DNA of 64,000 bases. Origin: Listeria grayi DSM 20601. Its GTDB lineage: Bacteria; Bacillota; Bacilli; Lactobacillales; Listeriaceae. A model generated the notes under the pieces. That model was not told where the DNA came from, did no database searches, and worked only from the letters and a program-made list of their open reading frames with translations. Position numbers and translations under genes: made by a program. How positions within the stretch are numbered: position 1 is the first letter of the stretch; each line of letters begins with the position of its first letter. Below, piece after piece: positions 16,760 to 31,082 of this stretch. The stretch covers positions 558,001 through 622,000 of the forward strand of contig NZ_GL538352.1 of assembly GCF_000148995.1 (NCBI RefSeq), read 5' to 3'.

Positions 16760-17328
16760 TAAAAAAACGCTCCAGTCACTCTGGGGCGTTTTTTTATTTT
16801 GATATTTAGATGATATAAAACGTGATCAGCAAGAGGAGAATCGTGAGCTACCCGCGGATGTATAAACGCTCCTGCAAAAGTCATCCCGATCCTCTGCATG
16901 ACTTTTTGAGAAGGGAGATTTGCTTTTGCAGTGAAACTGATGGCCTCTTGGAGAGCAGTTTTCGCTGCTGCATAATCAAGCGCTCCTCTCGCTGCTTCTG
17001 TTGCATAACCTTGATGCCACTTTTCCTCGCAAAGTCGCCAACCAATCTCGGTAGCAGGTGTAAAGCTGCTTTCAAAATCAGCAAGATGAAAGCCAGTAAA
17101 GCCAATAAATGCTCTCGATCGCTTTTCTTCTAAAGCAAAAAGCCCGTAATTATTTGCCATCAGCAATAATTGGAGCTTTTCCATAAATACTTTCGATTCT
17201 GCCGCGTTCAACTTGTGCGGGAAGTAGCGCATCACAGCATCATCTTGATTCATTGCTGTAAACGCAGGCAAATCCTCCGGCTGATAATCTCTGGCGATCA
17301 GTCGTCTTGTTTCAAAATATACGGTCAC
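16756..17328 (-). CDS. GNAT acetyltransferase (RimJ/RimL-like)
   Basis: A 190-residue GNAT-fold protein. The N-terminal [16 protein letters not shown] and the acetyl-CoA-binding region [22 protein letters not shown] (about residues 92-113) are typical of RimJ/RimL-type N-acetyltransferases, which modify ribosomal protein N-termini or small amines. The substrate is unknown. It overlaps the end of lexA by 4 bp and should be transcribed with it, so it may be SOS-induced. Its last dozen residues ([12 protein letters not shown]) are encoded by the glnA terminator hairpin and are probably not functionally constrained as protein. Confidence 0.82.
16761..16797. terminator. glnA terminator, embedded in the end of the convergent acetyltransferase gene
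   Basis: AAAAAAACGCTCCAG pairs with CTGGGGCGTTTTTTT. The hairpin lies within the last codons of the minus-strand acetyltransferase gene, whose stop is at 16756, so one sequence is coding on one strand and ends glnRA transcription on the other. Confidence 0.85.
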
Positions 17329-17939
17329 ACGATATCTCGATAAAGCCCGATGACTTTGCCTAAAATAGATACTTGTTGCAGAATGATCGGTTCAAAAGCA
17401 TCATTTTCGGGTTGTAGGCGGAAATGATCTTGTTCTTTATAGAATCGTTTGCAAGTCGCTTCATTATCTTCGGTCATTGCTACAACGATCTCGCCGTTGT
17501 TAGCATTGCTTTGTTGTCTAACGATAACGCGGTCTCCGTCTAAGATCCCCGCTTTCATCATACTCTCACCATCGATCTCCAACATGAAAACATTGCTTTC
17601 GCCACTCGTCAAGTGTTCAGGAAGAGGAAAGTACTCTTCGACATTTTCGATCGCTGTTATTGGAGTACCAGCTGTAACTTTCCCGATGATAGGCACAGCA
17701 ACTGTACTTGGGATATCGATCTCATCTTCCAATGAAAGGATCTCGATCGCTCTTGGCTTCGTAGGATCGCGGCGGATAAGGCCTTTGGTTTCTAATCGTT
17801 CTAAGTGACCATGGACAGTGGAACTGGAGGCAAGTCCAACAGCTTCACCGATTTCCCGAACGGATGGCGGATAGCCTTTTGCTTTAACTTGTGCTTTTAT
17901 AAAATCATATATATCCTGTTGGCGTTTGGATAGTTTCAT
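17325..17939 (-). CDS. lexA: SOS repressor LexA
   Basis: A 204-residue repressor with an N-terminal winged helix ([29 protein letters not shown], about residues 27-55) and a C-terminal S24 peptidase domain. The self-cleavage bond is Ala90-Gly91 (VTAGTP) and the catalytic dyad is Ser126 (DGESMM) and Lys164. It is divergent from yneA, with four LexA boxes in between, consistent with autoregulation. Upstream promoter on the minus strand: TTGCAT at 18003-18008 and TATACT at 17980-17985, spaced 17 bp. Confidence 0.98.
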
Positions 17940-17986: not shown

Positions 17987-18000
17987 CAAATGTCTGTTCG
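17987..18000 (-). promoter_or_regulatory. LexA box in the lexA promoter
   Basis: Read on the minus strand this is CGAACAGACATTTG, lying between the -35 and -10 elements of lexA. The left half-site is perfect and the right one (ATTTG) is degenerate. Confidence 0.7.
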
Positions 18001-18005
18001 ATATG

Positions 18006-18019
18006 CAAACAAAGGTTCG
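18006..18019 (+). promoter_or_regulatory. LexA box 2 between lexA and yneA
   Basis: CAAACAAAGGTTCG matches CGAAC-N4-GTTCG with one mismatch and overlaps the lexA -35 region. Confidence 0.65.
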
Positions 18020-18028
18020 ATTTTTCTG

Positions 18029-18057
18029 TTGACAAAAGGGAACAGTCGTTCTATAAT
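18029..18057 (+). promoter_or_regulatory. yneA promoter with LexA box 3
   Basis: TTGACA at 18029-18034 and TATAAT at 18052-18057 are spaced exactly 17 bp. The spacer holds GGAACAGTCGTTCT (18039-18052), a symmetric GAAC-N4-GTTC SOS box. This is a strong promoter directly blocked by LexA. Confidence 0.88.
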
Positions 18058-18066
18058 AATAAAAAG

Positions 18067-18080
18067 CGAACATATATTCT
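18067..18080 (+). promoter_or_regulatory. LexA box 4 downstream of the yneA start site
   Basis: CGAACATATATTCT has one perfect half-site (CGAAC) and one degenerate half-site, and lies between the yneA promoter and its ribosome site. Confidence 0.65.
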
Positions 18081-18744: not shown

Positions 18745-18838
18745 GCAGCATAGAGATAAGATAGTTGTACAATCGGCTTAGAAAGATTATTATAGTGTAT
18801 AGGAAGTTGTAAAATCAAAAGAAGAGAGGATGTTAAAC

Positions 18839-20833
18839 TTGTTTGATAAAACAGATCAATTAGCGATCAACACAATCAGAACGTTATCTATCGATGCGGT
18901 ACAAAAAGCGAATTCAGGACACCCTGGATTGCCAATGGGGGCAGCTCCAATGGCCTACACATTGTGGTCAAAAGTATTGAACACAAATCCGGCTAATTCG
19001 CATTGGTTCAACCGTGATCGTTTTGTGTTGTCTGCTGGGCATGGTTCCATGTTATTATACAGCCTGCTTCATTTAAGCGGTTTCAAACTTCAAATTGAAG
19101 ATCTGAAAAATTTCCGCCAATGGGAAAGTAAAACTCCCGGACATCCAGAATATGATTATACAGACGGCGTAGACGCAACTACCGGTCCATTAGGACAAGG
19201 TATCGGCATGGCTGTCGGTATGGCAATGGCAGAACGTCACTTAGCAGCATTATACAATAAAGAAAATTATCCAGTCGTGGATCACTATACATACGCGCTA
19301 TGTGGTGATGGTGATTTAATGGAAGGAGTTGCGGCAGAAGCTGTTTCTCTTGCTGGTCACCAACGTCTTGGCAAATTAGTATTATTATACGATTCCAATA
19401 ATATCTCATTAGATGGTGATTTGGATAAATCATTCTCAGAAGATATTAAAGGACGCTTTGAAGCATACGGCTGGGAACACTTGCTAGTAAAAGATGGCAA
19501 TGACACAGCAGAGATTCTTGCAACAATCGAAAAAGCTAAACAAAATACATCCCAACCAACCATTATTGAAGTGAAAACAACAATCGGTTTTGGTGCTCCA
19601 AATGCTGGAACAAGCAAAGTCCACGGTGCTCCACTAGGCGCTGAAGGCGTAAAAGCAGCGAAAAAAGCATATGGCTGGGATTACGAAGAAGATTTCTACG
19701 TACCAAGTGAAGTGTATACACGCTTTAAAGAAACGATCGCAACACGTGGTGAAGAAGCAGAAACAGCATGGAATGAATTATTCGGTGCTTACAAAAAAGA
19801 TTATCCCGAACTTGCCGAAACATTTGAAGCAAGCTTAAAAGGTGAACTTCCAGAAAACTGGGATGCGGATCTGCCAACATACGGCGATGACAAAGCATTA
19901 GCTAGTCGAGCATCTAGCGGGGAAGTAATCAATGCGTTAGCAGATAAAATCACAACATTCTTTGGTGGTTCTGCCGACTTAGCAGGCTCCAATAATACAA
20001 CCATCAGCTCTGACGGTGAATTCACAAAAGAAAATCCAGCAGAACGTAATATCTGGTTCGGTGTTCGTGAATTTGCGATGGCAGCAGCATTGAATGGTAT
20101 GGCACTTCATGGTGGCTTGCGTGTATTTGGAGGAACATTCTTCGTATTCTCCGACTATCAACGCGCAGCGATCCGTTTAGCTTCTATCCAAAAACTACCT
20201 GTCACATACGTGCTGACACATGATAGTATTGCTGTTGGTGAAGATGGTCCAACTCATGAACCAGTTGAACAACTTGCATCGCTTCGTGCAATGCCTGGCT
20301 TATCCGTTCTTCGTCCAGCTGACGGAAACGAAGTAGTCGCAGCATGGAAGATCGCGATTAGTTCTAAAAACCAACCTCATGCACTCGTCTTGACACGTCA
20401 AGGCTTGCCGACATTGCCGAAATCTGCAGAATTAGCAGAAGAAGGCGTTGCTAAAGGGGCTTACGTGATTTCACCAGCTAAAAATGACAAACCAGAAGTC
20501 ATCTTGCTTGCAAGCGGCTCTGAAGTCAACTTAGTAGTGGAAGCACAAAAAGAACTTGCGAACCAAGGAATCGATGCATCAGTTGTCAGTGTTCCATCTT
20601 TCGACTTATTCAGCAAACAATCAGCGGAATATAAAGAATCCGTTCTGCCAAACGACGTAAGAAAACGTGTTGCAGTAGAAATGGGTACAACATTCGGCTG
20701 GGAACGTTTCGTTGGACTAGACGGAAAAATTATCGGGATCGACAAATTTGGTGCTTCTGCTCCAGGTAACACAATCATTGAAAACTACGGCTTTACTGTT
20801 GACAATGTTGTCAATGCCGTTCGTTCTCTTTAA
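18839..20833 (+). CDS. tkt: Transketolase
   Basis: Thiamine-diphosphate enzyme moving two-carbon units between sugar phosphates in the pentose phosphate pathway. The N-terminal domain has [16 protein letters not shown] and the ThDP motif GDGDLMEG...NN (about residues 150-182). The middle domain has [19 protein letters not shown]. The ATG at 18830 overlaps the GAGAGG ribosome site, so the TTG at 18839 is the better start, giving 664 residues beginning MFDKTDQLA. It is followed by a strong terminator, then yneF. Confidence 0.96.
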
Positions 20834-21051: not shown

Positions 21052-21291
21052 ATGTGGATATACATTCTCGTGGGTATCATTTGCTTGCTTCTAGGAGCAG
21101 TCGGCGGATTTTTTATCGCAAGACAATACATGATGAGCTATTTGAAAAAGAACCCACCTATCAATGAACAAATGTTGCAAGTAATGATGGCACAAATGGG
21201 TCAAAAGCCATCTCAAAAGAAAATCAACCAAATGATGAGCGCAATGAACAAACAATCAGCCCAAGCATCAACGAAGAAAAAATCGAAGTAA
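21052..21291 (+). CDS. yneF: YneF family small membrane protein, insertion target of a mobile element
   Basis: A 79-residue protein with one N-terminal transmembrane helix ([22 protein letters not shown]) and a basic Gln/Met/Lys-rich cytoplasmic tail, matching YneF (UPF0154). AGGAGG precedes ATG 21052. The last 35 codons and the stop lie in a 113-bp perfect direct repeat that recurs at 27163-27275 on the far side of an integrase-bearing region. The gene therefore is the attachment site of an integrated element, and the reading frame is kept intact on this side. Confidence 0.92.
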
Positions 21292-21297
21292 AAAGCT
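21185..21297 (+). repeat. Left attachment site repeat (attL), end of yneF
   Basis: These 113 bp are identical to 27163-27275 and encode the last 35 residues of YneF, the stop codon and six further bases. The first mismatches are A/T before 21185 and T/G after 21297, so the ends are sharp. Confidence 0.93.
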
Positions 21298-21380
21298 TAT
21301 AAGTGTTGATATAAAGCCATTCTAACAGCTTGCCAAAAAGCTGTCAATCATCAAATTTTCACGAAAACTTATCCTGTTTC

Positions 21381-21415
21381 ATTAAACCATCGCAAAAATT
21401 CACAAACGTGAAAAC
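21381..21415 (+). promoter_or_regulatory. Candidate integrase arm-type sites, left end
   Basis: ATTAAACCATC (21381-21391) and AAACGTGAAAAC (21404-21415) recur in the same order and orientation just inside the right end (27066-27076 and 27122-27133). Shared short motifs next to both att cores suit binding by the recombinase or an accessory factor; this role is inferred. Confidence 0.45.
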
Positions 21416-21485
21416 TTAATGAAATAGAGTATAAAACTTAATCAAATAAAAATCTGTTCGGTTATTTCATTAATCTATCAGTTGG

Positions 21486-21534
21486 AAACCCCTTTTCAGG
21501 GACTTTAATCAAAAAGTCTTTGGAGAGGGGTTTT
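21486..21534 (+). terminator. Terminator-like hairpin that buries the integrase ribosome binding site
   Basis: AAACCCCTTTTC (21486-21497) pairs over 12 bp, counting G-U pairs, with GGAGAGGGGTTT (21522-21533). An inner stem is formed by GACTTT / AAAGTC (21501-21506, 21513-21518), and TTTTT follows. The right arm is the only good Shine-Dalgarno sequence of the recombinase, whose GTG start is at 21536. The hairpin could stop read-through from yneF and keep the site closed for translation. Confidence 0.65.
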
Positions 21535-21535
21535 T

Positions 21536-22456
21536 GTGTTGTCAGAAATAGAAATGATAGCGAAAGAATTTTTGCTAGATTGCGAGATTAGGGGGCTAAG
21601 TGTAAAGACAATTAAAAATAGAAAGTTTGAGATTGGTAAATTTTTGGATTTTCTTTATACCGCAGGAGTTAAAGAAATAAGCGGAGTGAATCGAATGGTT
21701 ATTAAGCAATACCTAGCTTTTAAATCCAGTCAAAATTTAAGCAGGAGCAGCATACGAGCTTTCTATTTCTGCGTTAGTTCTTTCATAACCTTTTGCGAAA
21801 AGGAACGGTACTTACCGAAAAACATCATGGAAGGATTGGAGCCGCCGAAAATCGAACAACGCCAAGTAAATGCACTGACCTATGAGGAAGTTATCAAATT
21901 GCTAAATAGTTATACCACGCAAAGTTTCAAACAATTAAGAGGTAAGACGGCGATAGCCTTGCTTGCTGATACAGGAGTACGCTCGAATGAGTTGCTGAAT
22001 ATTAAACTTGACCACATTCAGCAGGACAGCATTTTTATTGAAAAAGCGAAAGGAAATAAGCAGCGCACCGTCTATCTGTCAGCACTAAGCACGCAAATAT
22101 TAAGCAAATATCTTAGGAGGCGTCAAGACTATTTTACAGACCATGCGTTGATTGATGAAGAATATTTATTTGTTTCTTCGACGGTAGGACGACAACTGAC
22201 CTATGCGGGCTTGTATCAGATTATAAAATTTGCAGAGAAAAAAGCAGGACTGAAAGATGTTAGACCTCACAAATTCCGTCATTTTTATGCGGTTCAAAGT
22301 CTGTCAAATGGCTTGGATTTGTTCTTCGTGCAGCGAGTCCTTGGGCATAAAAGTGTCTCGACAACAGCAAAAGTTTATCTCGGTTCCATGCAAGAAGCAG
22401 AAGTAAAACGAAATGCTAAGTTAAATAGTCCGTTGTTAAAAAGGAACAAGAAATAA
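21536..22456 (+). CDS. Tyrosine recombinase / integrase of the yneF element (XerD-like)
   Basis: A 306-residue site-specific recombinase. The N-terminal SAM-like core-binding domain spans about residues 1-95 and the catalytic domain about 110-300. The catalytic set is complete: Arg149 (DTGVRSNEL), Lys172 region, His245 and Arg248 (HKFRH), His271 (LGHKS) and nucleophile Tyr281. There is no separate arm-binding domain of the lambda/Tn916 type. The start is GTG 21536, with the TTG at 21539 as an alternative. It sits 238 bp inside the left att repeat, the normal place for the enzyme that made the insertion. Codon use is more AT-rich than the neighbouring core genes. Confidence 0.93.
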   Translation: MLSEIEMIAKEFLLDCEIRGLSVKTIKNRKFEIGKFLDFLYTAGVKEISGVNRMVIKQYLAFKSSQNLSRSSIRAFYFCVSSFITFCEKERYLPKNIMEGLEPPKIEQRQVNALTYEEVIKLLNSYTTQSFKQLRGKTAIALLADTGVRSNELLNIKLDHIQQDSIFIEKAKGNKQRTVYLSALSTQILSKYLRRRQDYFTDHALIDEEYLFVSSTVGRQLTYAGLYQIIKFAEKKAGLKDVRPHKFRHFYAVQSLSNGLDLFFVQRVLGHKSVSTTAKVYLGSMQEAEVKRNAKLNSPLLKRNKK

Positions 22457-22463
22457 ATAAAAA

Positions 22464-22495
22464 AAGCCTCCCTGTTACTAGCAGGAAAGGCTTAA
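22464..22495 (-). terminator. Hairpin after the integrase gene, U tract on the minus strand
   Basis: AAGCCTCCCTG pairs with CAGGAAAGGCTT around TTACTAG. The run of A before it gives a U tract only on the minus-strand transcript, so it would chiefly stop antisense transcription into the integrase gene. Confidence 0.5.
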
Positions 22496-22497
22496 GG

Positions 22498-22540
22498 AAT
22501 GTTGCAATAACAACACCTAAACTACTGTTATTGTAGCATT
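22498..22540. repeat. Imperfect inverted repeat upstream of the winged-helix gene
   Basis: AATGTTGCAATAACA (22498-22512) faces TGTTATTGTAGCATT (22526-22540), 13 of 15 positions pairing across a 13-bp spacer. It lies 40 bp before the start of the DNA-binding protein gene and could be its operator or an RNA hairpin. Confidence 0.5.
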
Positions 22541-22579
22541 TCTATCTGAAAAATTCAATAGATAGGAGTGTATTTTATT

Positions 22580-23170
22580 ATGTACAATTTTAGTCACTTA
22601 TCAGAATATGAAACAGATTTTACCAATAAAGAAGAAATGAAGGAAGCAATCAGCAAACATTTGGAAGCCCACAGCATGAAACTGAACACGAATCAAAGAA
22701 GAGTAATCGAATATCTTGCATTAATCGCAGGCAATAATAACGGCGTATGTCACGTATATCGTCAAACGATTGCAGACAGCTTGCAAGTGTCCCCTGTGAC
22801 CGTTTCACGTGCGTTTAGAGCGCTGAAAAAGCTAGGCATCATCAAGGTGCAGGCAACCGCTAAAAAGAGCGTAAACGGCGGAAGAGGGGCGTCTATTATC
22901 ACTTTTTGTGCCTACGATGATAAGCAACATGATAAGCAAGATGATAACTTGTTGATGTCCGATGAAGTAAGTGATAGCAAGGCGTTAGCTGGTGAAAATG
23001 GAGTTATAACTACTTTAACTACACAAAAAACATTAGTTAAAAACTTATTAACAGACGACCAGATAAATGAGGTATATAAGTCTTTTCCTAACCTGTCAAA
23101 GTCCTTATTTAATCGTATTATGGTGGAGTTTAATAGACAAGCTAATCAGAAGTGTAAAGGGCCATATTAA
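22580..23170 (+). CDS. Winged-helix DNA-binding protein, C-terminus cut off by IS21-family insertion
   Basis: The visible part (196 residues from ATG 22580; the GTG at 22568 lies on the ribosome site) has a clear helix-turn-helix at about residues 40-95: YRQTIADSLQVSPVTVSRAFRALKKLGIIKV. It is followed by a basic wing (KKSVNGGRGASIITF) and a polar linker. Such domains occur in replication-initiation and regulatory proteins of plasmids and integrative elements of Firmicutes. The last native residues are about NRQANQK, after which the frame runs into the IS end (CKGPY, stop). The IS at 23153 has probably removed a C-terminal portion, so function is doubtful. I cannot say whether it was a replication protein or a transcription factor. 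Confidence 0.7.
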   Translation: MYNFSHLSEYETDFTNKEEMKEAISKHLEAHSMKLNTNQRRVIEYLALIAGNNNGVCHVYRQTIADSLQVSPVTVSRAFRALKKLGIIKVQATAKKSVNGGRGASIITFCAYDDKQHDKQDDNLLMSDEVSDSKALAGENGVITTLTTQKTLVKNLLTDDQINEVYKSFPNLSKSLFNRIMVEFNRQANQKCKGPY

Positions 23171-23254
23171 AATGTAGGAAAAGGGCCATCGAAAATGTAG
23201 GTACATGACAAATCTGATATTCTTTTTCATGAAACTATCCAAGGAGAGTGAATC

Positions 23255-24481
23255 ATGAGAAAAGATGTCTTAGAAGGAGTGTTACTACACATTATGAATG
23301 AAATTCATCCTAATTTCGCAGCCCTTGCCAAACAATATAATTGTGATTATCGAACGGTTAAACGCTATTATGAAGCTGGATTGACGGGGGATTTAGATAA
23401 GCTTAGAGAGAGAAAACCTTCGGTCCCTCCTTTGCTTCATGGTTTTGAAGAAATTATTCGTGATAAATTAGAATTAAATTGTTCGGCAGCTTCTATCTTT
23501 TATTTCTTAGGTAAAAAAGGTTATAAAGGGAGTTATACAACGATTAAACGTTATTGTCGTAAATACCGGGAAGAAAAAGTACAAAAAGCAACGATTCGTA
23601 TTGAGACCACACCCGGTCTTTCTGCTCAAGTAGATTGGAAAGAAAACGTTAAAATGGTTAGCCGAGACGGTGAAGTGTTTTATTTCAATATTTTTCTCTA
23701 TATTCTTGGTTACTCAAGAATGAAGTACTTAGAGCTCACTTTTGATCGAACACAACCGACGGTTTTTCAGTGTTTAGTCAATGCCTTTGAATATTGCGGA
23801 AACGGTATTCCTCAAGAAATTTGGTTTGACAATATGAAAACCGTTGTCGACCGTAGTAAGAGTCAATTCACACAAACTGTTTTCAATGAAAAATTCCGGC
23901 AATTTGCGAAAGATGCTGGATTCCATCCGATTGCTTGTCGTCCTTTTAGACCCCAAACAAAAGGGAAAGTGGAAGCATTAGCCCGAACAGTTGAGCGTTT
24001 AATGGTCTTTAATTATGAATTTACAGATGTACAAGAGTTAAAACAGATCATATATGAATTGATGCAAGATCTGAATGGCTCCGTCTCACAAGCCATCCAC
24101 AACAAACCGACGGTTTTACTAAAGGAAGAGCTTCCCATACTAGCTCCCATCCATCGTTTAGAATTGCTCAGCTATGTTTCTAGAAATAAACGTCTACTGA
24201 GAAAGGTATCGATGGAGTCCATGGTTCAATATCAAAATGCTAAATATTCTGTTCCTGTTAAATATATTGGGAAAGAAGTGACGTTAGATATTCGTAGGGA
24301 CAATCTATTTGTTTGGTATGGGGATAAATGTATTCGAACCCATCCTATAAGTGAAAAAGCGCTTAATTATCAACGCGAAGACTCGCTTGAAATTTTGCGT
24401 TCCGATGTATTTAAATATTTAGAAGATGAAGAATTAGAGCGATTTGTCGATGATAATTTACATGCATATGACGATCTATAA
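23255..24481 (+). CDS. istA: IS21-family transposase IstA
   Basis: A 408-residue DDE transposase. It has an N-terminal helix-turn-helix (FAALAKQYNCDYRTVKRYYEAG) and an integrase catalytic core with Asp127 (QVDWKE), Asp192 (WFDNMK) and Glu240 (KGKVEALARTVERL). The C-terminal beta-barrel-like segment begins near residue 310. The length is at the short end for IstA but all catalytic residues are intact. It is followed by istB after 10 bp, and the pair is needed for transposition. Confidence 0.95.
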   Translation: MRKDVLEGVLLHIMNEIHPNFAALAKQYNCDYRTVKRYYEAGLTGDLDKLRERKPSVPPLLHGFEEIIRDKLELNCSAASIFYFLGKKGYKGSYTTIKRYCRKYREEKVQKATIRIETTPGLSAQVDWKENVKMVSRDGEVFYFNIFLYILGYSRMKYLELTFDRTQPTVFQCLVNAFEYCGNGIPQEIWFDNMKTVVDRSKSQFTQTVFNEKFRQFAKDAGFHPIACRPFRPQTKGKVEALARTVERLMVFNYEFTDVQELKQIIYELMQDLNGSVSQAIHNKPTVLLKEELPILAPIHRLELLSYVSRNKRLLRKVSMESMVQYQNAKYSVPVKYIGKEVTLDIRRDNLFVWYGDKCIRTHPISEKALNYQREDSLEILRSDVFKYLEDEELERFVDDNLHAYDDL

Positions 24482-24491
24482 GGAGGAAATG

Positions 24492-25247
24492 ATGTCCCAT
24501 TACCATCAATTGTTAAATCAACTAAACGAATTGAATTTATCTTGCATGAAAGAAAATCTACCTGCCCATTTAGATGAGGTTGCCAAAAGTGATAAATCGC
24601 TTGTAGACTCTTTATTCGAGCTCACCCAACAAGAAATTAGTTATCGTAAAAAAGAAAGTCAAAAAAAGGTATTAAAGCGTGCAATGTTCCCCTACCACAA
24701 ACGACTCCATGATTTCAATTTTGATTTTCAACCAAGGATAAAAAAGAAGGAAATGCAGGATTTATTAACATTACGCTTTTTAGACACATATGACAATATT
24801 CTCTTTATTGGAAATAGTGGTGTTGGAAAGACCCATTTAGCCGTTTCAATTGGATTAGAATGTATCGATCGTGGTTTAAGTTGTTTGTTCATTACGAGCA
24901 CTGAATTAGTGAATCGTTTGATCCGCGCTCACAAGCGCGGAACTAGCGAAACGATGCTAAAAAAATATTCGGGTTATTCGGTGTTGATTATCGACGAAGT
25001 CGGCTATTTACCTTTCTCCAAAGAAGGTTCCAACTTACTTTTTCAGCTGATTAATATGCGGTATGAAAGAAAATCTACGATTGTTACAACCAATATCCCA
25101 CTATCCCAGTGGTCCGAAATATTTGGAAACAAGAAGCTTACCAACGCGCTACTGGACCGGTTGGTCCATCACTCTAAATTGATCCAAATTACGGGGCCCT
25201 CTTATAGAATGAAGAGTTATAGCGAAAACAAAGAGGTGAAATCGTAA
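24492..25247 (+). CDS. istB: IS21-family ATP-binding helper protein IstB
   Basis: A 251-residue AAA+ ATPase related to DnaC that assists IstA in target capture and strand transfer. Walker A is GNSGVGKT (residues 107-114), followed by Walker B (VLIIDEVGYL) and the Arg-rich C-terminus. AGGAGG at 24481-24486 supports ATG 24492; the ATG at 24489 is too close, and an upstream in-frame ATG at 24444 lies inside istA. Confidence 0.95.
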   Translation: MSHYHQLLNQLNELNLSCMKENLPAHLDEVAKSDKSLVDSLFELTQQEISYRKKESQKKVLKRAMFPYHKRLHDFNFDFQPRIKKKEMQDLLTLRFLDTYDNILFIGNSGVGKTHLAVSIGLECIDRGLSCLFITSTELVNRLIRAHKRGTSETMLKKYSGYSVLIIDEVGYLPFSKEGSNLLFQLINMRYERKSTIVTTNIPLSQWSEIFGNKKLTNALLDRLVHHSKLIQITGPSYRMKSYSENKEVKS

Positions 25248-25382
25248 AAACGTTTAAACGATTTTCACCTACATTTTCAGTGGCCTAAAACCAATATTTT
25301 AATATGGCCCTTGACACCTTGCCTAATTGACAGGGCTTTTTCTGTATAAATAAGCAGGCATAAATACCTATTTATTATGTGA

Positions 25383-25396
25383 TTCTGTATACAGAA
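25383..25396. repeat. 14-bp perfect palindrome upstream of the secreted-protein gene
   Basis: TTCTGTATACAGAA is fully self-complementary. It lies 67 bp beyond the IS end and about 65 bp ahead of the promoter, and could be an operator; a similar half-site (TTCTGTATA) occurs about 55 bp upstream. Confidence 0.45.
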
Positions 25397-25422
25397 ATTG
25401 TAAATTTACATAAAATTTCAGT

Positions 25423-25488
25423 CGTTTAAGACAAAATATAAGCCGTTTAAGATATTTATTACAATTTAAAGACAAAATATGTTAAAAT
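25423..25488 (+). promoter_or_regulatory. Promoter of the secreted-protein gene with phased direct repeats
   Basis: TTACAA (25459-25464) and TAAAAT (25483-25488), 18 bp apart, form a plausible promoter. CGTTTAAGA occurs at 25423-25431 and 25444-25452, 21 bp apart, and ATTTAAAGA at 25464-25472 about 19-20 bp further on. GACAAAATAT also occurs twice (25430 and 25471). Repeats at two-turn spacing suggest an activator or repressor binding along one face of the DNA. Confidence 0.5.
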
Positions 25489-25533
25489 AATTACTGTTGC
25501 GCAACTAAGACTACATAGAAAAGGATGATTAAC

Positions 25534-26196
25534 TTGAAGAAAAATTTATTTTTCATAGCTATTGCTTTGCTAGCTTCTTTTATTATTTTTTCCCCTAGCC
25601 ATGCTAAAGCAGCCGAAAACATTGCTACTATCCATTCAGACGATATTGCAGCAGAATTTAAAGTAAATAGTGCATTGAAAGACGATAAAATAAATGTCGT
25701 TAGAGTGGTATCTGATAAAGATAATGCTAATACCACGCCTCCGAAAATTATGGCAGGAGGGACAAGCGCCGTCAAATATGACATTCGTCATGTTAAAAAG
25801 GCACCTGATTACATAGGCAAAACTGTTGTAAGAAAATTAAATGGAGAACCTGGTTTTAAATTGAAACTTAATTTTACAAAAGACGTAACGGCTACAACCT
25901 CCGCAACATTCGGGGCAACAAAAAAATTAATTAGCACAAGCGTTGGTTTTACGATTAGTAAAAAGTATAGCGTTTCGTATGACGGCGAATACAAAGTTCC
26001 TTCTAAAGTAGGTAAAAAGAAAGTGAAAAAAGTATCTATTGCTACCTATGTTGTATACGCTACTAAAAAATACGATGTATACAAGCTGACAAAAGTTACT
26101 TGGTGGGGCAAGCATGAGTTCAAGAAGCAAGGCACTGGGAAAGCCCATAAGCCATATGGTTTTGAATATAGAAAAACGTTCACATATAAAAAATAG
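25534..26196 (+). CDS. Secreted protein of unknown function, cargo of the yneF element
   Basis: The precursor is 220 residues. It starts with a classical Sec signal peptide: MKK, a hydrophobic core at residues 4-20, and an AKA cleavage site after residue 26. The mature part of about 194 residues is rich in Lys, Thr, Val and Tyr. It has an alternating beta-strand pattern and a central segment ATTSATFGATKKLISTSVGFTISKKYSV. That segment resembles small exported proteins found on plasmids and prophages of Firmicutes, none with a function I can name. The TTG at 25534 is preferred because the ATG at 25525 overlaps the AAAAGG ribosome site. Nine bases after it comes a tiny membrane protein gene. A toxin/immunity or surface role is only a guess. 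Confidence 0.72.
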   Translation: MKKNLFFIAIALLASFIIFSPSHAKAAENIATIHSDDIAAEFKVNSALKDDKINVVRVVSDKDNANTTPPKIMAGGTSAVKYDIRHVKKAPDYIGKTVVRKLNGEPGFKLKLNFTKDVTATTSATFGATKKLISTSVGFTISKKYSVSYDGEYKVPSKVGKKKVKKVSIATYVVYATKKYDVYKLTKVTWWGKHEFKKQGTGKAHKPYGFEYRKTFTYKK

Positions 26197-26205
26197 GGTA
26201 GGTAA

Positions 26206-26424
26206 ATGAAAATGAAAATAAAAATTATAATGTGTATTTTTGCAGTAATCGTTTGTGTATTGATATTTCTATCTCCTAGCATGATTTACAATAATCTAAG
26301 CGCAACTTATGATAATATCGAAAGTAAATTATTTAGTACAGATTATGCTATAAGAACCTGTGCAACAATTATTAGCTTGTTAGGGATATTGGCAAGCGGT
26401 TTAATAATTTTCAATAAGAAATAA
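26206..26424 (+). CDS. Small two-helix membrane protein paired with the secreted protein
   Basis: A 72-residue protein with a hydrophobic helix at about residues 4-24 and a second at about 50-68, joined by a polar loop with Asn, Tyr and Ser. It starts 9 bp after the secreted protein gene, and AGGGTAGG serves as ribosome site, so both belong to one operon ending at the terminator at 26431. The layout (secreted protein followed by a small membrane protein) is seen in bacteriocin/immunity pairs, but no sequence motif proves it. ATG 26212 is an alternative start. Confidence 0.6.
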   Translation: MKMKIKIIMCIFAVIVCVLIFLSPSMIYNNLSATYDNIESKLFSTDYAIRTCATIISLLGILASGLIIFNKK

Positions 26425-26430
26425 AACTGG

Positions 26431-26456
26431 AAGCTCGTTTATACGGGCTTTTTTTG
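26431..26456 (+). terminator. Terminator of the secreted/membrane protein operon
   Basis: AAGCTCGT pairs with ACGGGCTT (one G-U pair) around TTAT, followed by seven T. Confidence 0.8.
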
Positions 26457-26470
26457 TGCCTAAATACCTA

Positions 26471-26499
26471 TTGATAATAAGAACGTTTGTTCGTAAAAT
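26471..26499 (+). promoter_or_regulatory. Promoter with LexA box ahead of the YolD-like gene
   Basis: TTGATA (26471-26476) and TAAAAT (26494-26499) are spaced 17 bp, and the spacer contains AGAACGTTTGTTCG (26480-26493). This is a near-perfect GAAC-N4-GTTC SOS box in the same position relative to the promoter as in yneA and in the tag operon. Confidence 0.85.
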
Positions 26500-26530
26500 A
26501 AAGGTAATAAGATGATAGGAGAGGGATAAC

Positions 26531-26959
26531 ATGGAAGATATTTTCAATTTATCCAGCCAAGACACTTACACGGACAGAGGAATGCTAAAATACAATGGAT
26601 TTATTCTAAAAGAACATAGGGACACACTGAAAGAGTTTGAACGCCTATACGCTTTAGTAGACAAGCCTGTCATAGACGAGCAAGCCATGCAGGAGAACTT
26701 ACAGGCGCTCAAAGAAGCGCATGCGGATAACAGAGGGGTAACGGTCAAAGTGTTCCAGGAAGCTAATTTAAGGGACTATTTGACGGTCACAGATAGGGAC
26801 AGCGTACTATTAAGAGATTACGAGGGAATGGGAGAGATACTAACGTTAGAATGGGCGGTGCCTGTTTACTTTGAAACCGATAGCCAAATGGTTCAATTTG
26901 AATTACCTGTAGAGGTTATGGAGAGAATAGCCTTTGATGATATTTTGGAAGTGTATTAA
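26531..26959 (+). CDS. YolD-like family protein under LexA control
   Basis: 142 residues. The segment DRGMLKYNGFILKEHRDTLKEFERL followed by a helical stretch and a C-terminal beta-rich part matches the YolD-like family. In Bacillus those genes precede a Y-family DNA polymerase (UvrX/YqjW) in SOS-induced operons on prophages and plasmids. GGAGAGGG precedes ATG 26531 and a LexA box lies in the promoter. No polymerase gene follows; the next 200 bp lead straight to the right att site. The partner was therefore lost or never present. The C-terminus is somewhat longer than usual. Confidence 0.75.
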   Translation: MEDIFNLSSQDTYTDRGMLKYNGFILKEHRDTLKEFERLYALVDKPVIDEQAMQENLQALKEAHADNRGVTVKVFQEANLRDYLTVTDRDSVLLRDYEGMGEILTLEWAVPVYFETDSQMVQFELPVEVMERIAFDDILEVY

Positions 26960-27065
26960 AGTAAAAAAATCAGCAAATTTTGCGAGTGAAAAGGCAGCGC
27001 ATTGACAAAATTTTTTTATTTGATAAAGTTTCCTTACTGACGTATTTATTAAATAAGTCTTTTTG

Positions 27066-27133
27066 ATTAAACCATCTGCATGGATTTACCCAATAATTAG
27101 CAGAATTTTATAATTTGATTAAAACGTGAAAAC
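27066..27133 (+). promoter_or_regulatory. Candidate integrase arm-type sites, right end
   Basis: ATTAAACCATC (27066-27076) and AAACGTGAAAAC (27122-27133) duplicate the left-end motifs, 30 to 97 bp inside the right att repeat. The remaining sequence from 26960 to 27162 is AT-rich and holds no gene. Confidence 0.45.
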
Positions 27134-27162
27134 GGTTGGTATAACTGGATTTTCGCTTATTT

Positions 27163-27275
27163 TGATGGCACAAATGGGTCAAAAGCCATCTCAAAAGAAA
27201 ATCAACCAAATGATGAGCGCAATGAACAAACAATCAGCCCAAGCATCAACGAAGAAAAAATCGAAGTAAAAAGCT
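27163..27275 (+). repeat. Right attachment site repeat (attR), orphan yneF 3' end
   Basis: An identical copy of 21185-21297. It encodes the YneF tail from the second Met-Ala-Gln-Met-Gly onward but has no start, promoter or upstream coding part, so it is a by-product of integration and marks the right boundary of the element. Confidence 0.93.
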
Positions 27276-28285: not shown

Positions 28286-28924
28286 ATGAAAAAAGTTTTG
28301 ATCCGAGTTTTTATTACTTTAGCACTGACAGTAGTGATGTTCGTTGGGGGAACATACGTCGCAGATGCTGCCAACACAATCTTACATGGTAAGGAAGACA
28401 AGATTCAACAAATTAACGCAGTATTAGATTCCTTAGACGGAAAACTTACTAGTAAAGTAAAACAAGTAAATGATTTAAACACACAAGTAAGTGACCTGCA
28501 AACACAAATCCAAACGTTAAAAGCGAACTACAACACTGCACAAGCAAACTACACACAATATCAACAACTATATGATGTGAAATCACAACAATATGATCGT
28601 GATATGCAACAAAAAAATGTAGAATTACAACAAAAAGATGTGCAAATTCAACAAAAAATCGCTGAAGGTCAACAACAAGTGGCTCAAATCCAAACACAGC
28701 TAAACGCCAAACAATCCGAATTAGATGCAGCTAACCAAAAATTAGGTACACTAAATCAACAAGTTTCTGATTTGACAAGCCAAAAAAATACATTGACAGC
28801 ACAATTAGCGGACAAAGATAAAAATCTAAGCGACATCACTGCTAAATATGAAAAACTAAAAGCTGATGTTGACAACACTGCGTCCCATGCTGCACAAGTC
28901 CAAAACAATCATTCCAACGATTGA
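28286..28924 (+). CDS. Exported or membrane-anchored coiled-coil protein
   Basis: 212 residues from ATG 28286 with GAGGGGG upstream; the frame is open to 28256 but that lacks a ribosome site. The hydrophobic segment at residues 4-25 (IRVFITLALTVVMFVGGTYVADA) is a signal peptide or anchor. Residues about 35-205 form a long Gln/Lys-rich coiled coil with heptad-like repeats such as VQIQQKIAEGQQQVAQIQTQL. No enzymatic motif is seen. It is monocistronic, between its own promoter and a terminator. A structural or cell-surface role is likely; the precise function is unknown. Confidence 0.75.
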   Translation: MKKVLIRVFITLALTVVMFVGGTYVADAANTILHGKEDKIQQINAVLDSLDGKLTSKVKQVNDLNTQVSDLQTQIQTLKANYNTAQANYTQYQQLYDVKSQQYDRDMQQKNVELQQKDVQIQQKIAEGQQQVAQIQTQLNAKQSELDAANQKLGTLNQQVSDLTSQKNTLTAQLADKDKNLSDITAKYEKLKADVDNTASHAAQVQNNHSND

Positions 28925-29330: not shown

Positions 29331-31082
29331 TTGAAAATTTTTAAGGAGCTGAGTTGGTTTTTTAAGGAAAGGTGGAAACATTATTTATTAGGCGTGAGCA
29401 TTTTATTCATGATTTCTCTACTCCAATTGATTCCTCCGCAAATCATCGGGATAACGATTGATGCGATTACTCAGCAGGTGATCACTTCCAAAAAATTATT
29501 TAATTGGATGCTGATCTTAGTTGTTACTGGTATTTTCACTTATCTGGGAAGGTACGTATGGCGGAACATGATCTTTGGTTCTGATAATCGTTTGCAGCGG
29601 ACATTGCGACTGCGACTGTTCGAGCATTTTACAAAAATGTCGCCGTTTTTCTTTCAACGTTATCGTACGGGGGATTTAATGGCGCATGCGACGAATGATA
29701 TCAATGCGATCCAACAAGTGGCGGGAGCAGGTGTGCTTCAGTTAGCGGATTCTGTATTGACCGGCAGTACAGTCATTATTACGATGGCAATCACGATCGA
29801 TTGGCGACTGACGCTGATCGCGCTTCTCCCGATGCCGTTTATGGCGCTTGGGAGTTCGATGCTGGGAAGACGGATGCACGCGCGCTTTCACAAGGCGCAG
29901 GAATCTTTTTCAAGATTAAATGATAAAACGCAGGAAAGTATTTCCGGAATTAAAGTAACACGCACATTTGGTCAAGAAAAAGAGGATGTTCAGGACTTTA
30001 GCAATCAAGCGGAAGTGGTCGTGAAAAATAATGTTTCGGTTGCAAAAGTCGATGCCTTATTCGAACCGATGATTTCTGTGATCGTTGGGATCTCCTTTGT
30101 ATTATCTATCATTTTTGGTTCTAAGTTTGTAGTGGATGGTTCTTTGACGATTGGACAGGTCATCGCGTTTACGAACTATTTATTCTTATTGATTTGGCCG
30201 ATGTTGGCGTTTGGCTTTTTGTATAATGTCATCCAACGCGGAAGCGCTTCTTACGACCGGGTCATGCATTTGTTGAATGAAAAAGAGGATATTATTGAAG
30301 AAGAAGGGGCAATCACAACCAAGCCTTCTGGAGCGATTCAAATGAATCTGGAAAGGTTCACATATCCTGATGAAAATGAAGCTGTTTTGAAAGCGATCGA
30401 CTTTATACTTCCAGCTGGCGGGACGCTTGGGGTCGTTGGGAAAACAGGCGCCGGGAAGACGACATTATTGAAGCTATTGATGCGGGAATTTGATGACTAC
30501 GAAGGGGAAATCAAAATTGGCGGGAGATCGATCAAACAATACTCGTTGAAAGCACTTCGAAGTTCGATCGGCTATGTTCCGCAAGATCAGTTTTTGTTTT
30601 CGACAACGATTGAAGGGAATATTCGTTTCGGGAAACCAGAGGCGTCACATGAAGAAGTAGAGCAGGTTGCTGATCTAGTGGCCGTCCATGAAGATATAGT
30701 CGGATTTGAGCAAGGTTATCAAACTGTGGTCGGGGAGCGCGGGGTTTCACTTTCCGGTGGACAAAAACAACGCTTGGCGATTGCTAGAGCTTTGATTTTA
30801 GATCCAGAACTATTGATTTTGGACGATGCTCTCTCTGCGGTTGATGCAAAAACCGAAGAGCAGATCCTGCATAATCTTAAAACAACGCGTACTGATAAAA
30901 CCACGATAATCGCGGCTCACAGACTTAGTTCAGTCGAACATGCCAATGTCATTATTGTTATTGATGGTGGCCGGATCATTGAGCGCGGGACGCATTCGGA
31001 ACTTATGGCGCAAGATGGTTGGTATGCCGAAATGTTCCGTAATCAGCAGCTTGAACAATCTTTAGAGAAAGGGGGCGAATAA
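29331..31082 (+). CDS. Heterodimeric ABC exporter half with degenerate ATP site (BmrC/LmrC-like)
   Basis: 583 residues: a six-helix transmembrane domain (about 15-310) followed by a nucleotide-binding domain. Walker A is GKTGAGKTT near residue 373 and the signature is LSGGQ. Walker B is LLILDDALSAVD, where Asp replaces the usual catalytic Glu, the mark of the degenerate half of a heterodimeric exporter. The start is TTG 29331 with AAGGAGGG 7 bases upstream. Its partner begins 1 bp after its stop. The family exports drugs and lipids; the substrate is unknown. The leader terminator at 29270 suggests induction by ribosome-targeting compounds. Confidence 0.9.
   Translation: MKIFKELSWFFKERWKHYLLGVSILFMISLLQLIPPQIIGITIDAITQQVITSKKLFNWMLILVVTGIFTYLGRYVWRNMIFGSDNRLQRTLRLRLFEHFTKMSPFFFQRYRTGDLMAHATNDINAIQQVAGAGVLQLADSVLTGSTVIITMAITIDWRLTLIALLPMPFMALGSSMLGRRMHARFHKAQESFSRLNDKTQESISGIKVTRTFGQEKEDVQDFSNQAEVVVKNNVSVAKVDALFEPMISVIVGISFVLSIIFGSKFVVDGSLTIGQVIAFTNYLFLLIWPMLAFGFLYNVIQRGSASYDRVMHLLNEKEDIIEEEGAITTKPSGAIQMNLERFTYPDENEAVLKAIDFILPAGGTLGVVGKTGAGKTTLLKLLMREFDDYEGEIKIGGRSIKQYSLKALRSSIGYVPQDQFLFSTTIEGNIRFGKPEASHEEVEQVADLVAVHEDIVGFEQGYQTVVGERGVSLSGGQKQRLAIARALILDPELLILDDALSAVDAKTEEQILHNLKTTRTDKTTIIAAHRLSSVEHANVIIVIDGGRIIERGTHSELMAQDGWYAEMFRNQQLEQSLEKGGE

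Follow-up and report, generated by a model that had tools for sequence, protein, structure and literature searches.

Why does the chromosome of Listeria grayi DSM 20601 carry the end of the gene yneF twice, with a recombinase gene lying between the two copies? The question is raised by a window of 64,000 nucleotides (nt), the whole stretch of DNA analysed here, which corresponds to positions 558001-622000 of a contig in the 2.6-Mb genome. A preliminary description had proposed that an integrative element was inserted in yneF, which the duplicated sequence restored. The evidence gathered since then supports this proposal: in all likelihood, a small integrative element entered the 3′ end of yneF by recombination mediated by its own tyrosine recombinase (Int), leaving the target gene restored.

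The target gene yneF (UPF0154 family) occupies 21052-21291 on the plus strand and its open reading frame (ORF) is intact (Pfam UPF0154, E 1.3e-30). The final 107 bases of the gene and the 6 bases that follow it make up a unit of 113 nt, whose left copy on the attL side (21185-21297, plus strand) is 100% identical to the right copy on the attR side (27163-27275, plus strand). The start-to-start spacing of 5978 bp that had been reported for these perfect repeats was thus confirmed, and falls to 3814 bp after subtracting the insertion sequence (IS) found between them. From about 21185 onward, the 3′ end of yneF was probably supplied by the element, and the right repeat is probably the displaced 3′ end of the host gene. 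As yneF DNA differs by ~17-21% between L. grayi and other species of the genus and both repeat copies are identical, it may be inferred that the tail brought in by the element was derived from the host's own species or was recently exchanged. Just inside the left repeat, where the preliminary description had placed a tyrosine recombinase, lies an intact int gene encoding 306 amino acids (aa) (21536-22456, plus strand; Phage_integrase, E 3.6e-29), which contains words of the R-K-HxxR-H-Y catalytic set. The upstream neighbour of yneF is tkt (18830-20833), and the tkt-yneF region is ~75% identical to its Listeria monocytogenes counterpart. All ORFs assigned to the element share one reading direction, and its G+C content without the IS is 35.2% against about 41% in the flanks. 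No tRNA gene was found in the window, in agreement with the view that the target is not a tRNA gene.

The family Listeriaceae was sampled with 36 species genomes, one per species and L. grayi included, and the yneF neighbourhoods of the 35 relatives were compared. Three of the 36 hold an element or a remnant at yneF, namely L. grayi, a genome of a second genus (G032) and another member of that second genus (G035); in each of the remaining 33, yneF is present once and nothing beside it matches the L. grayi Int. In G032, an element of 3.4 kb sits at yneF and the tail of the gene is duplicated (L029 2285-2389 and 5692-5795), with 102 of 105 aligned positions identical. The recombinase gene of this element is frameshifted and gives the only Int match in the 35 neighbourhoods, 38% identical over 249 aa (tblastn, 147 bits), the next-best recombinase among the loci compared scoring 124 bits and lying elsewhere in the L. 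grayi genome. Moreover, a 148-aa unaltered piece of the G032 recombinase, searched in the 36 genomes at E<=1e-12, matched only itself and the L. grayi Int. In G035, yneF is followed directly by what is left of a G032-like element, its left end, with 80% identity over 177 nt that span a hairpin and the first int codons; the remainder of int is missing, and no repeat was found on the right. Recombinase homologues beside yneF, which the preliminary description had suggested looking for, are therefore present elsewhere as a frameshifted gene and a stub. Its refuting case, a repeat in strains that lack the integrase region, did not appear among the 36 genomes, where the yneF-tail duplication occurs only in the two whose yneF has a matching recombinase next to it, be it intact or broken. 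On the right side, the ABC transporter gene at 29331 of the window has a counterpart downstream of yneF in 15 of the 35 relatives, so host DNA resumes beyond the right repeat. Between the two, a coiled-coil-like protein with an N-terminal hydrophobic segment is encoded at 28286-28924, with no match in any of the 35 neighbourhoods.

A duplicated yneF C-terminus was found in 2 of 395 genomes of the order, L. grayi and G032, after the 45 genomes listed with more than one yneF match had been searched again. Elsewhere, the additional match was either weak (E above 5e-4), a yneF with a frameshift (G017) or a double at a contig end (G039). The frameshift of the former (G017:C14:23553-23790) lies in a draft genome and may be real or a sequencing error. 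Across the class (299 genomes, C-terminal 44 aa, E<=5e-4), of which only 124 gave any match, L. grayi alone had a real duplicate. Such tail scans are blind to attachment repeats much shorter than 30 codons. A long yneF interval in one relative (G028) was accounted for by a transporter-like gene, on reading of its ORFs, and holds no element. With regard to Int itself, its own copy was the only one recovered from the 36 family genomes and from 395 order genomes at E<=1e-45, a cut-off below which the broken G032 gene falls, and from 398 class genomes at E<=1e-38; in the order and class scans no more than 5 candidates were scored in each genome, and broken or remote copies could therefore be missed. 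None of the plasmid (3407) and phage (728) records with a match to Int reached 60% identity. Scans of viral contigs with Int and with two proteins of the cargo, the winged-helix and secreted proteins described below, returned zero relatives, and a scan of genome contigs with Int returned two distant recombinases, 27% identical.

The preliminary description had listed a short cargo, of which the truncated winged-helix gene and the YolD gene with its LexA-type box were found as described; it had overlooked a complete IS21-family insertion sequence of 2164 bp with terminal inverted repeats (23153-25316, plus strand). Its genes istA (23255-24481, plus strand; NCBIfam, E 6e-69) and istB (24489-25247, plus strand; E 9.8e-81) both score above the curated cut-offs. 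This sequence matches 146 plasmid records, 92 of them at >=99% identity, and the ten listed are from Listeria, at 99.9%; the L. grayi genome holds 4 full-length copies, the one in the window included. The IS is a later insertion into the element, which measures about 3.8 kb without it, and perhaps crippled it, the winged-helix gene being interrupted after 191 codons. None of the four genomic copies shows a target-site duplication, so DNA may have been lost beside the winged-helix gene.

A second feature shared by the three loci stands at the left end. Directly before the int start codon, a terminator-like hairpin followed by T residues is predicted at 21484-21535 on the plus strand (-31.7 kcal/mol, z -5.67), and its 3′ arm holds a purine-rich stretch that by eye resembles the ribosome-binding site of int. 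The left ends of G032 (-25.6 kcal/mol, z -5.63) and G035 (-19.5 kcal/mol, z -3.56) have the same arrangement of hairpin and int, and two further stretches that were folded were unremarkable (z -1.90 and 0.41). A simple terminator scan, run on the window and on G032, lists the window hairpin among 5 sites for 4.0 expected and misses that of G032, which is visible by folding alone. The motif TTTSATTAA occurs five times at the left end (21377-21513) and twice more at 27062-27122, so that 7 of its 8 window copies fall in the two ends of the element, as weak candidates for protein-binding sites. It was rejected as an Int-binding site: 11 of 100 shuffles reached its total of 8 (4.9 expected in the whole window), a post hoc control was weak, being reached by 11 of 200 shuffles, and in G032, with one mismatch allowed, 12 copies against 10.7 expected were not above chance. 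Two promoter-like sites at the right end (27002-27029 and 27085-27114) would face int solely in a closed circle. The idea of a circle-dependent promoter is only a hypothesis, since promoter-like sites are little above chance in the window (32 versus 23 expected) and G032 (5 versus 8.2 expected), with none on the plus strand near its right end, speaks against it. On the minus strand, a strong promoter-like site (11/12) at 21347-21319 reads from the left end back over the yneF tail.

Altogether, these features suggest a mechanism in which a XerD-like Int would recombine a circular form of the element with the 3′ end of yneF. The attachment site of the element would hold a copy of that end, which would leave the left gene whole after integration: the crossover within the repeat would join the 5′ part of the host yneF to the tail of the element on the left, and leave the host's own tail as a dead fragment on the right, the direction of strand exchange being inferred. 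Such an arrangement is usual for tyrosine integrases in gene ends. The hairpin before int would terminate yneF transcription and, because a sequence like a ribosome-binding site lies in its 3′ arm, may keep int silent during integration. A winged-helix replication-type protein would probably once have maintained or copied the element, which may have moved between cells by hitch-hiking with a helper, and an IS21 copy would later have cut this gene. The element may be satellite-like or a remnant, both readings being compatible.

The functions assigned to the genes of the element are putative throughout. The winged-helix gene, of which 191 codons are left before the IS (22580-23152, plus strand), matches a replication-type phage family (phrog_1835, E 7e-20); in this regard, the earlier statement that the element has no recognisable transfer or phage genes holds for its first half, as no transfer gene was recognised, and needs some qualification for its second. 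Members of the family are seen on plasmids, in phages and in islands, in regions concerned with replication or control. The winged-helix protein was matched in 4 of the 36 family genomes, L. grayi among them, and in neither G032 nor G035; four relatives have 257-270 aa and a fifth, on the plasmid pLIS55, has 326 aa. One relative has an AAA-ATPase gene nearby on a Brochothrix plasmid, and another, by reading of ORFs, a ParA-like gene on a contig of 41.8 kb (G034). A third, in a Bacillus phage, occurs together with a tyrosine integrase and a gene annotated as YolD-like within about 3 kb. A further one belongs to an island of G026 (L086 2365-8805) that, with labels again taken from reading of ORFs, also contains integrase, repressor and primase-like genes and looks like a phage satellite. 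The relative on pLIS55 (L071 1078-2058; 39% identical over 46% of the query) is a candidate initiator, the available text of PMC8508797 reporting no known replication system for this Listeria plasmid.

Beyond the IS, a secreted protein of 223 aa with an N-terminal signal-like hydrophobic segment (25525-26196, plus strand) is followed by a 72-aa protein with two hydrophobic segments, as judged by hydropathy (26206-26424, plus strand). The secreted protein matched 3 plasmid records, of which two were examined (a 7-kb Bacillus altitudinis plasmid and the 4.9-kb pEXIG01), and gave two matches besides L. grayi in 198 order genomes; a single-sequence AlphaFold2 model reached a mean pLDDT (predicted local distance difference test) of 35.7. 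In pEXIG01 a short protein follows the relative of the secreted protein, and in the B. altitudinis plasmid an unannotated open stretch takes that place, the likeness consisting of position and two-segment form. That the pair represents an antagonist and its immunity partner is a guess. Upstream of the secreted-protein gene, a perfect 14-bp palindrome (TTCTGTATACAGAA, 25383-25396) may be an operator, and a 21-nt near-repeat (86%) precedes both this gene (25358-25378) and the YolD-like gene (26458-26478).

The YolD-like gene (26531-26959, plus strand; Pfam YolD, E 1.9e-8) is probably under SOS control, judging from a plus-strand promoter-like sequence, TTGATA-17-TAAAAT (26471-26499), whose spacer holds a LexA-type box with one mismatch (26480-26493). 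With a lax LexA pattern, 31 matches, five of them with one mismatch, were counted in the window for 22.9 expected, so the box carries weight mainly by its position in the promoter spacer. In other Bacilli, YolD accompanies UvrX-type polymerases, according to the available parts of PMC6511836 and PMC8508797. No such Y-family polymerase is present in the element, to which this search was confined. In the host DNA, yneF lies near lexA (17325-17939, by reading of ORFs), with four LexA-box-like sites at 17987-18080.

Several points weigh against the integration of a mobile element as proposed. No transfer gene, packaging gene or complete replication gene was recognised in the element, and the putative replication role of the winged-helix protein is drawn from family resemblance; no relaxase or conjugation gene was found among the seven element ORFs scanned, very short ORFs not being scanned, nor any structural, packaging or lysis gene by family and profile scans of its ORFs. 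Excision as a circle is a prediction of the proposal. With one genome per species, the exact empty site was unseen. Since no close Int was found outside Listeriaceae in the plasmid, phage, order and class searches, the evidence for a family comes from a single intact gene, a broken one and a stub. Moreover, no cargo common to the G032 and L. grayi elements was recognised. In the G032 element, the C-terminal fragment of an endolysin (phrog_2338, E 2.3e-32) suggests a phage origin; the G035 remnant encodes a secreted protein assigned to a phage family (phrog_22993, E 4.9e-42), and the users of the yneF site may therefore have phage ancestry.

These phage-type genes would be explained if the locus were what remains of a temperate prophage with yneF as its attachment gene, reduced by decay to int, one early gene and post-lysis cargo genes, and the grouping of a winged-helix relative, a YolD-like gene and a tyrosine integrase in the Bacillus phage would be in line with it. 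We consider this rather unlikely, because int is intact, the window element shows no recognisable structural, lysis or packaging gene, and the two elements flanked by a repeat on either side are similarly small (3.8 kb without the IS and 3.4 kb). Furthermore, the integrase of the Bacillus phage is 24% identical, its YolD-like protein matches at a non-significant E of 0.061, and all 728 phage records remain below 60% identity to Int. It is very improbable that the yneF tail was duplicated segmentally or by an IS, with no site-specific recombination involved: an IS21 copy does lie inside the element and is one of four full-length copies in the genome, but it is about 1.85 kb from either repeat, and in the other genus the element has a repeat of this gene end, too, next to the closest Int relative, this IS not being found there.

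Not the opposite of the integrative element favoured here but a closer reading of it is a plasmid-like or phage-satellite-like replicon that integrates at yneF, with maintenance of its own and transfer by a helper, which seems possible, if short of probable. The ParA-like, AAA-ATPase and integrase/repressor/primase-like neighbours of the winged-helix relatives (in G034, the Brochothrix plasmid and G026, respectively) agree with such a replicon, as do the relatives of the secreted protein on plasmids of 4.9 and 7 kb; on the other hand, the element has no recognised primase, partition gene or relaxase, and its winged-helix gene is cut short. A more elaborate scheme is doubtful: a Listeriaceae- and yneF-specific family of minimal elements (3.4-3.8 kb), in which the hairpin would silence the integrated int, the right-end promoter-like sites would switch it on at closure of the circle, a secreted antagonist would be paired with a membrane immunity partner, and YolD would be linked to the SOS response.

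Phage satellites such as phage-inducible chromosomal islands (PICIs) are small and combine int with a replication-type gene in the absence of structural genes. The yneF element is alike in all these respects and differs in that no primase, interference or packaging gene was recognised; of the PICI-like set of int, repressor, primase or replication gene and packaging interference, only int and the truncated winged-helix gene are present. Like pEXIG01 and the B. altitudinis plasmid, it encodes a secreted protein related to theirs, with a short two-segment membrane protein next in line; those, however, are free plasmids with no annotated integrase. According to the available parts of PMC8508797, repA-family Listeria plasmids carry UvrX-YolD modules; the likeness lies in a YolD with a LexA-type box and in IS21-family elements, and the difference in a YolD without a Y-family polymerase. 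Streptococcal integrative and conjugative or mobilisable elements with tyrosine integrases use the 3′ ends of rpsI, rplL, rpmG, lysS and guaA (PMC4701971, PMC5357655, as far as their accessible text goes) and likewise have Int at one end, a direct repeat and a restored target gene; the L. grayi element is unlike them in its target, yneF, which does not occur in the accessible text of either paper, and in having no recognised relaxase or conjugation gene. Prophages of L. monocytogenes also integrate site-specifically in a chromosome of the Listeria family, at comK, tRNA genes, EF-Ts and rpsI, but are about 40 kb long, carry phage genes and use other sites, yneF being absent from the available portions of PMC8303350.

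As the preliminary description had supposed, no element family using yneF as its attachment gene turned up in the accessible portions of the open-access literature. In that same material, joint mentions of yneF and attB concern E. coli, those of UPF0154 and integration concern other matters, and tkt in PMC7006209 belongs to a sugar-utilisation cluster. The mechanism is ordinary, and the attachment gene appears new to the literature. The hairpin before int offers a concrete control feature, and the recombinase, with its site of 100 bp, might be put to use as a tool for integration. The secreted/membrane pair is shared with small plasmids found in other Bacilli and may represent a still uncharacterised system of antagonist and immunity partner. 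For the Listeria family, yneF would be added to the known integration sites as a protein-coding attachment gene.

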